A stretch of 35,376 nucleotides of DNA from an uncultured Gammaproteobacteria bacterium. Lineage in GTDB: Bacteria; Pseudomonadota; Gammaproteobacteria; Pseudomonadales; Pseudohongiellaceae. Position numbers and translations under genes: made by a program. Below are positions 1 through 23,874 of this stretch, in pieces (the first letter of the stretch is position 1; every line of letters begins with the position of its first letter). The DNA lies in assembly GCA_913054495.1 (NCBI GenBank), contig CAJXIY010000023.1:1-35376 (forward strand), read 5' to 3'. The notes below the pieces were generated by a model, which was not told the DNA's origin, ran no database searches, and saw nothing but the letters and a program-made list of their open reading frames with translations.

Positions 1-259
1 TTTCTTTGGCACTGTCACGCAGCGCTTTACATTGCATAGTTCAGCCGCCGGTAAAGGCTTTGGGAAAGAAGGCAATGACCACAGGTTTTTCGCCCAAAAA
101 CTGGGACATGCTGTAGGTCATACCGTCAGATGCCTGCAGTGAAAAATTGGGCGCTTTATCGCCTACTTCCAGTGCGGCAGCAATTTGACCAGTCAGGGTA
201 ACCACAGCAAATAAAGCTGACAGCAACACCCGGCTTGATCGGTTAGCAAATTGAGACAT
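1..259 (-). CDS. Exported peroxiredoxin-like selenoprotein, 3' end beyond the window
   Basis: A thioredoxin-fold thiol peroxidase of the AhpC/TSA type, predicted to reduce peroxides in the periplasm. The start at 259 is chosen because GGAGGA lies just upstream and a Sec signal peptide follows directly (about residues 1-28, ending near QIAA-A). The mature part begins LEVGDKAPNFSLQ, typical of the family, and reaches FFPKAFTGG. The next codon, at 41-43, is TGA, and the same frame continues T-M-Q-C-K-A-L-R-D-S-A-K-E to the edge. Homologues have cysteine in this position (FTxGCT..CK.L), so the TGA sits exactly on the peroxidatic residue and is read as selenocysteine. A SECIS-like hairpin follows at 9-25. 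A gene finder would stop at 41 and miss the active site. The alternative is a nonsense mutation or sequencing error; the position and the hairpin argue against it. Peroxiredoxin-like selenoproteins are a known class. The remainder of the gene and the selenocysteine machinery lie outside. Confidence 0.82.
9..25 (-). promoter_or_regulatory. SECIS-like hairpin for UGA recoding
   Basis: In the mRNA sense the element is GCGCUG-CGUGA-CAGUGC: a six-base-pair stem including one G-U pair and a five-base loop. The loop starts 21 nt after the UGA at 41-43 and has G as its second base. This agrees with the known bacterial SECIS pattern: a stem-loop a short distance after UGA with a G at the start of a small apical loop, bound by SelB. 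It lies within the coding sequence, as bacterial SECIS elements do. Confidence 0.68.
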
Positions 260-541: not shown

Positions 542-1723
542 TTATAATAGTAGCCGACGTCCGGCCCGCAGTAATTGCTCCGACTGGCTCTGAAGTTGAA
601 CAATCTGATTTTCCAACTCACGCAATTGTGCCGCACTCAATTCGGTGGTCGTTGTCCGGATTGTCTCCAATCGCTCTATCGATTGGACAATGTTTCTGGT
701 ATGCCTGTTCATTGCATTTCGTTTCGCATCACGCTGTGATTGTCGATAGCGAGGGTTCTCTACCTGTACGTTGTAACACTGCCTGACGATTGCGCCACTG
801 GTCGTTCTCACATTCTGACACCGGGTCTGCGTAACAAATCGGCTGGCCAGGCCTTCGAATGCCGAAACCGGCGTGCTGGCGACGGAGCGCGCGAGGGCCA
901 GGTCGGCCTGGACCTTGTCAGAGACCAGGTGCACCAAAGTAGTAACACCGATATCCGGTTGACCTTCGATACTGACGATGATGCGCTCATAGAATTCACT
1001 GAGATCGGTGGCACCATTTGCCAGCGCACGAAAATTCTGCTGCAGCAGATTGTCACGGATCAATTCCAGTTTCCAGCCGCCATAAATCTCTGCATAGGCC
1101 AGATAGTGAGAGTCGGTGAGCGGGTACAGACGGCTATTAATATGCAGCGAGAGTTCGTACAGGTCGTCGACTTCCTGCCAGGCTTCCAGCTTGCGATTGA
1201 GGTCGATGAGATTGATTAAGACCGGCAGCTGCGTTTCGCTATCTAGCCCGGAACTGATTCGCGCCACCTGCAGGGCGTCGGTGAAAAGTTTCACCGCATT
1301 TTCGTAGTCTTCAATTTCATTGTAGAAGCCGGCGAGGTCGGAGTAGGCCTCCAACAAGGCAGGGTCGTATATGCCCAGCTCACTGCGCATGTTCTCAAGG
1401 GCTTGCTGTCGTAGTAACAACTCCCGGCTGATCTCCAGCGATCGGGCCCGGTCTCGTGCCTGTTTCTCCTCGTCCGCCTGCGCCTGTGCCCGTTGTTCCG
1501 CCTCCGCCACTGCCTTTACTTTGATTAGGAGATCGATACCGACAGCCGCTTCATTCTCGGCGACATCCGGCTGCTGGGCCCACAGCGAAGTCGCCATTCC
1601 GAGTAGAATTACGAAGGACAAGCAGAGTCGAATCAGCAGCGCCACCATCAGGGACGATTCGCAGGTTCTCATTTTGTGAACAGGTCTTGCAGACATGATT
1701 TTTGTCATCTCTCTATTAGCCAT
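542..1723 (-). CDS. Exported TPR and coiled-coil protein of unknown function
   Basis: Function not recognised. The 393-residue product has a hydrophobic export segment at about residues 26-48 (ending in SLWAQ), so the protein is probably periplasmic or attached to the envelope. A charged Ala/Glu/Arg/Gln-rich helix at about 62-112 looks coiled-coil. Residues 115-200 read as two or more TPR-like repeats (for example AYSDLAGFYNEIEDYENAVK), a fold used for protein-protein contact. The last 45 residues form a second Leu/Gln/Glu-rich helix, and a central stretch holds a pair of cysteines. The start is uncertain: ATG at 1723 has AGGTGA only two bases upstream, and in-frame ATGs follow at 1708 and 1696, the last of which leaves a more usual signal peptide. 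It stands alone on the minus strand, 282 bp upstream of the selenoprotein gene. Confidence 0.7.
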   Translation of the reverse strand: MANREMTKIMSARPVHKMRTCESSLMVALLIRLCLSFVILLGMATSLWAQQPDVAENEAAVGIDLLIKVKAVAEAEQRAQAQADEEKQARDRARSLEISRELLLRQQALENMRSELGIYDPALLEAYSDLAGFYNEIEDYENAVKLFTDALQVARISSGLDSETQLPVLINLIDLNRKLEAWQEVDDLYELSLHINSRLYPLTDSHYLAYAEIYGGWKLELIRDNLLQQNFRALANGATDLSEFYERIIVSIEGQPDIGVTTLVHLVSDKVQADLALARSVASTPVSAFEGLASRFVTQTRCQNVRTTSGAIVRQCYNVQVENPRYRQSQRDAKRNAMNRHTRNIVQSIERLETIRTTTTELSAAQLRELENQIVQLQSQSEQLLRAGRRLLL

Positions 1724-23394: not shown

Positions 23395-23874
23395 CTACAG
23401 CACTTCGAGCATAGCCTCGGCCGAGCTCACCTTAATTTCACCCGGCGCCTCGATGACCAGATGGATTACGGTGCCATCGTCAACAATCATACCGAAGCGC
23501 TTGGCCCTGCCTCCCATGCCGAAACCGCTGGCGTCAAGCTCCATGCCGATCGCAGCGGTGAATTCCCCATTGCCATCGGCGAGCATGAGGATCTCTTCGG
23601 CATTTTGTGCCTGGCCCCAGGCGCCCATCACGAAGGCGTCATTCACCGACATACAGGCAATAGTATCCACGCCCTTGTCCTTGATGGCATCTGCACTGAC
23701 GACGAAGCCAGGCAAGTGGGTCAGGGAACAACCCGGCGTGAAGGCGCCAGGCACGGCGAAGAACACGACTTTCTTGCCGTCGAACACCTCCTGAGAACTC
23801 ATGTCTTTGGGGCCATCTGCCATCATTACCTTGAAATTGACCGCCGGTATCTTGTCTCCCACCTGAATTGACAT
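23395..23874 (-). CDS. Peroxiredoxin, Prx5 type (cysteine form)
   Basis: A cytosolic thiol peroxidase of 159 residues, reducing hydrogen peroxide and organic peroxides with glutathione or a thioredoxin-like partner. The active site is FFAVPGAFTPGCSLTHLPGF, with the peroxidatic Cys49 in the Prx5 motif. A second cysteine at 74 lies in TIACMSVNDAFVMGAWG, a conserved family stretch. It lacks the C-terminal glutaredoxin domain seen in some gammaproteobacterial fusions. It differs from the selenocysteine peroxiredoxin at 1-259 in branch, cell location and catalytic residue. It heads a minus-strand row ahead of the dienelactone hydrolase gene, and is divergent from the YdcF-type gene across 176 bp. 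Confidence 0.92.
   Translation of the reverse strand: MSIQVGDKIPAVNFKVMMADGPKDMSSQEVFDGKKVVFFAVPGAFTPGCSLTHLPGFVVSADAIKDKGVDTIACMSVNDAFVMGAWGQAQNAEEILMLADGNGEFTAAIGMELDASGFGMGGRAKRFGMIVDDGTVIHLVIEAPGEIKVSSAEAMLEVL

Follow-up and report, generated by a model that had tools for sequence, protein, structure and literature searches.

The window analysed here, a stretch of 35,376 nucleotides that makes up contig C23 of the 201-contig genome of an uncultured gammaproteobacterium (family Pseudohongiellaceae), opens at its left edge on a minus-strand gene that, judged from sequence, very probably encodes a peroxiredoxin (Prx) of the AhpC/TSA family. In sequence the protein appears closest to two groups, PrxQ/Bcp and AhpE; it is probably exported, and an in-frame UGA would specify selenocysteine (Sec) at its peroxidatic position. 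Standard gene calling splits such a protein at the active site, so that it is easy to overlook what may be a conserved defence against peroxides in a group of marine gammaproteobacteria.

Gene structure and contig join

The reading frame begins at an ATG (positions 259–257, minus strand), meets a TGA at 43–41 and is then open to the contig edge. Under translation table 11 the ORF terminates at position 41, as the original prediction had foreseen for an automatic call. The first 86 codons lie within the window (1–259, minus strand) and the remainder on contig C111 of the same genome (L003, 9875–9537, minus strand). Window bases 1–55 are identical throughout to the last 55 bases of C111 (9821–9875), on which the frame reaches a TAA, leaving 107 residues after the TGA and a joined product (C23 plus C111) of 180 residues. 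Readthrough gives ...FFPKAFTGG-U-TMQCKALRDSAKE around the TGA, and the active-site stretch of the joined 180-residue reading is ...VVIAFFPKAFTGG-U-TMQCKALRDSAKE....

The join was drawn from this identity together with gene order. It is supported by the unbroken contigs of relatives, in which the same gene is flanked upstream by a TPR-repeat gene (542–1723, minus strand, in the window) and downstream by DUF3014 and rhodanese genes; the rhodanese gene downstream at the Sec loci matches C111. The 55-mer, which spans both the UGA and the hairpin described below, is letter-identical in the sister genome G093 (L025; also L115 in the named collection), and we infer that the assembly probably broke at this point because of it. 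The TGA sits inside the C23/C111 overlap, and the two contigs need not be independent evidence for it.

Coding signal across the UGA

The original prediction held that the frame runs through the TGA at 41–43 without another stop and that this codon falls where relatives have the catalytic cysteine. Both claims were borne out: homology does not drop off after the TGA but carries on through the rest of the completed gene on C111, and the Cys copies carry TGC (11) or TGT (4) at the UGA place (n = 15). Site 73 is TGA in 75/75 TGA copies from 74 genomes (partial copies and the window's own included), never TAA or TAG, and none of the 75 has any other inner stop. The median dN/dS was 0.075 before the TGA and 0.078 after it, based on 400 random pairs of which 232 and 233, respectively, were used once pairs with saturated dS had been left out. 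Equally low values on both sides, combined with the lack of other inner stops, are a strong argument against a decayed gene. Taken at the sequence level, these comparisons confirm the TGA-interrupted frame as a real gene, far beyond chance.

Peroxiredoxin family and active site

The complete frame matched PF00578 (AhpC-TSA) with an E-value of 6.6e-30 and 104 bits against a gathering score of 26, and each half of the frame matched the same model separately. The TGA occupies the peroxidatic place of PxxxTxxC, so that the UGA (41–43, minus strand), based on the frame, the homologue alignment and the conservation of TGA, would be Sec73 of a PxxxTxxU motif. P66, T70, site 73, Cys77 and R141 were invariant in 14/14 aligned rows. 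PxxxTxx[U/C]xxxC was found in 101 of the 102 distinct homologues, the exception (L100) having an ambiguous residue at the Cys, and the Arg-aromatic-Thr pattern around R141 in 97/99. Past residue 25, sites 73 and 77 are the only Cys/Sec residues in 98/101 homologues, whereas L187, L194 and L199 have more than these two. The conservation of Cys77 (codon at 29–31, minus strand), at +4 of Sec73, suggests that it is the resolving thiol.

The best NCBIfam match was the PrxQ/Bcp model NF006960, whose Bcp cut-off of 140 bits the protein, at 76.9 bits, does not reach. Among PDB sequences, the Bcp homologue 3drn and Rv2238c (1xvw, 4x1u), the latter known as AhpE, matched best. In one PrxQ type the second Cys follows five residues after the peroxidatic one (+5). 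The present protein differs from PrxQ/Bcp in having the second Cys at +4 (versus +5 in the PrxQ-type rows L200–L203) and Sec in place of Cys. Elsewhere in the window, a second peroxiredoxin-like ORF (23395–23874, minus strand) has PGAFTPGC with Cys and no evident signal peptide.

Relation to described selenoproteins

With Thr at −3 of Sec (T70/U73) in a PF00578 protein, the gene falls under the TxxU Prx definition given in extracts of PMC2398784 and PMC1088965. Selenoproteins of this family, marine ones included, have already been described: excerpts of these papers report 43 genes in the Sargasso Sea (PMC1088965) and 253 in GOS (PMC2398784), and portions of two reviews list them as well (PMC9312934, PMC13188914). 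The present gene thus appears to be a well-supported addition to a known family (TxxU, PF00578/COG1225), and the finding is therefore less novel than the original prediction rated it. PF00578 membership, TxxU and the peroxidatic Sec are shared with described members, among them the Eubacterium acidaminophilum enzyme and marine sequences. The descriptions of Prx selenoproteins in these extracts mention neither an export signal nor UxxxC; by this comparison, made on descriptions, the present gene may differ in having both, its export being predicted. Neither an exported Prx selenoprotein nor the UxxxC motif was met in the excerpts returned by a literature search limited to open-licence papers, and OM182 and Pseudohongiella are not mentioned among the matches listed in the open-licence search.

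A SECIS-type hairpin after the UGA

Directly downstream of the UGA lies a predicted SECIS-type hairpin, GCGCUG-CGUGA-CAGUGC (9–25, minus strand; arms 25–20 and 14–9, loop 19–15), recognised from codon conservation and a pairing table. Its apical loop, CGUGA, is 21 nt from the UGA, with a G at loop position 2 and a U at position 3. In distance and loop the hairpin fits the bSECIS model as quoted in the available part of PMC13188914, which places a G at loop position 1 or 2, often followed by G or U, 16–37 nt from the UGA. E. coli formate dehydrogenase, a different enzyme from the present peroxiredoxin, is alike when compared through that model: its UGA is followed by an in-gene hairpin with a G within the first two loop positions (PMC13188914, same part).

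Codons 79–83 (GCG CTG CGT GAC AGT), which make up the greater part of the hairpin, were identical in 75/75, 75/75, 74/74, 74/74 and 73/74 TGA copies, respectively. Synonymous diversity over codons 79–84 of the TGA copies was 0.13 of expectation, a value as low as which occurred in 0 of 20000 random column sets, versus 0.76 over codons 30–72 and 0.83 over codons 86–176. For the 15 Cys copies the same codons gave 0.72 of expectation, and 1285 of 20000 random sets reached a value that low. What the hairpin costs is directly visible here, with codons frozen in the presence of the UGA and free in the presence of Cys. The inner four pairs and the CGUGA loop occur together in 42/42 distinct Sec sequences and 0/16 distinct Cys sequences, while all six pairs are found in 37/42 of the former and the loop letters alone in 5/16 of the latter. 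The pairing table leaves out L114 as well as the copy in the window, whose 45 bases equal those of L025, and also rows with N and the PrxQ-type rows L200–L203; these last were also dropped from the distinct-homologue counts and the 55-row trees.

Covariation lends the hairpin weak support. Two-sided changes affect two pairs only, both in the distant sequence L199, where C-G replaces the loop-closing G-C, changing Asp to Glu, and U-G forms the outer pair. The covariation score of the hairpin was 0.098 versus 0.118 for a control slid by three columns, i.e. similar, whereas 98 percent of its cells were paired versus 55 percent in the same control. The sequence behind the UGA, folded by itself, does form a hairpin, but its folding energy compared with shuffles was not more stable in any of the four stretches examined (z of −0.25, −0.59, −0.59 and +0.15), and codon conservation was therefore taken as the evidence for the hairpin. 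On that footing, alignment of the two forms shows that a putative RNA hairpin immediately after the UGA is kept at the nucleotide level in the UGA form only.

Selenocysteine machinery

The search for selenocysteine genes proposed with the original prediction recovered selA, selB, selC and selD in this genome, and the selenoprotein reading of the peroxiredoxin is accordingly supported. The selA gene is on contig C176 (572.7 bits) and the tRNA-Sec gene, with anticodon tca, on C99 (63.7 bits). The selB gene is split over C143 and C151 as contig-end readings with the same letters, its N-terminal part scoring 305 bits and its C-terminal part lying on the overlapping contig. SelD is encoded on C98 (274.9 bits) as a fusion to an Ndh-type domain with CxxC present (L022, 1–2088); marine Ndh-SelD fusions were reported earlier, according to extracts of PMC2398784. 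Approximately 100 bases beyond the tRNA-Sec gene is a phage-type integrase ORF (PF00589; L013 on C99, 10099–11893), which suggests that selC may serve as an integration site in this genome.

Probable export and a possible reductant

The N-terminus has R7 and R10, a hydrophobic stretch and A27-x-A29, and contains no Cys. Based on this pattern and on hydropathy, residues 1–29 (173–259, minus strand) are a likely signal peptide with predicted cleavage after A29. The highest 12-residue mean hydropathy near the N-terminus was at least 1.63 in the 101 measured of 102 distinct homologues (L100 was set aside for its ambiguous residue). The N-terminus therefore resembles a Sec-pathway signal peptide, and the protein is probably exported. 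If so, a selenoenzyme would operate in the oxidising periplasm, with its reductant supplied across the membrane.

In the mechanism that we propose, SelB would bind the hairpin and deliver Sec-tRNA at the UGA, and the signal peptide would direct the protein to the periplasm. There the Sec73 selenolate would attack and reduce peroxides, turning into a selenenic acid, which Cys77 (most members have no further Cys) could resolve as a selenenylsulfide. Re-reduction would come from a periplasmic thioredoxin-like protein, itself fed by the DsbD/ScsB-type membrane reductase of the genome. The candidate for that reductase is the only DsbD_TM match in the genome at E 0.001 or better, a protein encoded on contig C140 that combines DsbD_N, DsbD_TM and thioredoxin domains and scores below the NCBIfam DsbD cut-off. 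A precedent for a reductant of the DsbD/ScsB type is offered by Caulobacter, in which ScsB, TlpA and the periplasmic peroxiredoxin PprX are described in extracts of PMC5403849. By description, PprX works in the periplasm and is supplied by a membrane protein resembling DsbD, as is proposed here for the present protein; those extracts mention no selenocysteine.

Alternative explanations

Several other readings of the locus were weighed. That it is a decayed peroxiredoxin gene with the TGA as a real stop, or a product of sequencing error, is barely credible. Such a reading would agree with the table 11 termination at 41 and with the five genomes that carry the TGA gene with no selA match, but it does not sit with a TGA shared by 75/75 copies that have no other inner stop and dN/dS values of 0.075 and 0.078, with the sel genes of this genome, or with a nucleotide-level hairpin limited to TGA copies. 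A true selenoprotein might, on the other hand, work mainly as a thiol:disulfide oxidoreductase or sensor instead of a peroxidase. We regard this as unlikely: the oxidoreductases in question, several PF00578 selenoproteins listed as Prx-like in portions of PMC13188914 and PMC9312934, have UxxC or UxxU, and while the second thiol of UxxxC would suit such a role, the peroxidatic PxxxTxx[U/C]xxxC is found in 101/102 distinct homologues and the Arg-aromatic-Thr pattern around R141 in 97/99.

The location of the protein is a separate matter. A selenoperoxiredoxin held by an N-terminal membrane anchor, or translated from a later start, would not be released to the periplasm. This seems quite unlikely given that the N-terminus is hydrophobic in all 101 measured of the 102 distinct homologues while its letters vary, and that an AxA-like stretch follows the hydrophobic part and precedes the conserved LEVGD in most aligned rows, Cys forms included. 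An exported selenoperoxiredoxin is the reading preferred here.

Distribution among relatives

Among 137 genomes of the family, 74 have the TGA gene, 15 a Cys gene and 48 no close copy. The TGA genomes all belong to the genus of the window (g1) with the exception of G018 (genus g4), and the Cys copies come from genera g5 (one genome) and g6; records of Pseudohongiella in the named collection carry the same Cys proteins (L185, L186). L073, a second fetch of copy L041, was dropped from the codon, homologue and dN/dS counts and from the trees. At E 1e-50, selA was found in 69/74 TGA genomes, 11/15 Cys genomes and 13/48 genomes with no copy (TGA genomes versus the rest, Fisher p 2.7e-12, uncorrected for kinship). 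A second search for selA, at E 0.001, in eight members of the genus that lacked it likewise gave no match; five of the eight carry the TGA gene, including G087, which is rated 99% complete. These five genomes are in 70 to 390 contigs, so that assembly gaps are a likely, though not proven, cause.

A scan of the named collection matched at least 481 relatives, and the best 80 comprised 70 Sec and 10 Cys forms, 68 of the Sec forms being recognised by pattern and two (L184, L189) by eye. In a sample of 369 genomes of the class, nine matched at E 1e-30: the genome itself, G450 and G468 with Sec, G158 and G306 with Cys, and four of PrxQ type. In a sample of 398 genomes of the phylum, three matched at E 1e-35, namely the genome itself and two Cys genomes. 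Three single records deserve mention. L187 (PBVL01000159.1) has a second in-frame TGA at residue 158, near the end of the reading, which could be explained by an error, by a genuine stop or in some other way; G061 has two TGA copies, L100 and L113, one of them cut by a contig end, which could represent mixed strains or a duplicate; and the Cys copy L064 (G022) stops at a TAG nine codons short of the end of its close relative L065.

Evolution of the Sec and Cys forms

The original prediction proposed a search for Cys homologues in sister genomes, and these were found, in sister genera and at the same genomic place. A DUF3014 neighbour is present at 19/27 loci, comprising 14/14 Sec loci of the family group (L116–L158, L171) and 5/5 Cys loci (L174, L176, L181, L185, L186), and the TPR gene is present at 18 of these 19; it is thus found at Sec and most Cys loci (18/27 overall). 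The remaining eight loci are more distant Sec rows with other neighbours. Gene order thus shows the Sec and Cys forms to occupy one and the same genomic place, and the idea that the Cys form had arrived elsewhere in the genome was rejected on the basis of these common neighbours.

Trees were built from rows of at least 150 residues, the 55-row trees with every fourth family Sec row plus named ones. In the 55-row tree, the 14 family Cys rows are nested together with 29 Sec rows in a group of 43 rows (100/97), which needs two changes. The outgroup rows L197, L198 and L199 do not form one side of a branch, and the root as drawn lies next to L197 and L198, which are Cys rows. A tree constrained to unite all Cys rows cost 27.2 log units (AU p 0.015, all columns), and 20.7 units (AU p 0.033) when the UGA site was left out along with the 14 residues that follow it; the group constrained was picked after the first tree, and the outgroup branches are long. 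With the same residues left out, support for the 43-row group was 34/96 and that for the branches beside the Cys clade 44/0 and 67/57. A single change between Cys and Sec with no reversion is disfavoured by both AU values (0.015 and 0.033). A tree that included the PrxQ rows had very long branches, and its root is not settled.

Based on these comparisons, the best reading, with modest support, is one Cys-to-Sec gain followed by a return from Sec to Cys in which the hairpin was lost. The excerpt seen of Table 1 of PMC1794560 seems to contain no Sec-to-Cys case for Prx. The contrast between frozen and free codons makes both the gain of selenocysteine and the apparent reversion testable at one syntenic place.

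A more far-reaching history, as a whole slightly less likely than not, would have a periplasmic selenoperoxidase with Sec73-x-x-x-Cys77 arise a single time in Gammaproteobacteria out of a Cys form, persist across dozens of species within one genus, and go back to Cys, with loss of its SECIS hairpin, in a sister lineage (g5 and g6, the Pseudohongiella type). If true, the locus would serve as a natural experiment, with a before and an after, for asking why a lineage still able to make selenoproteins gives one up. Of the 15 genomes of the apparent reversion, 11 still have selA.
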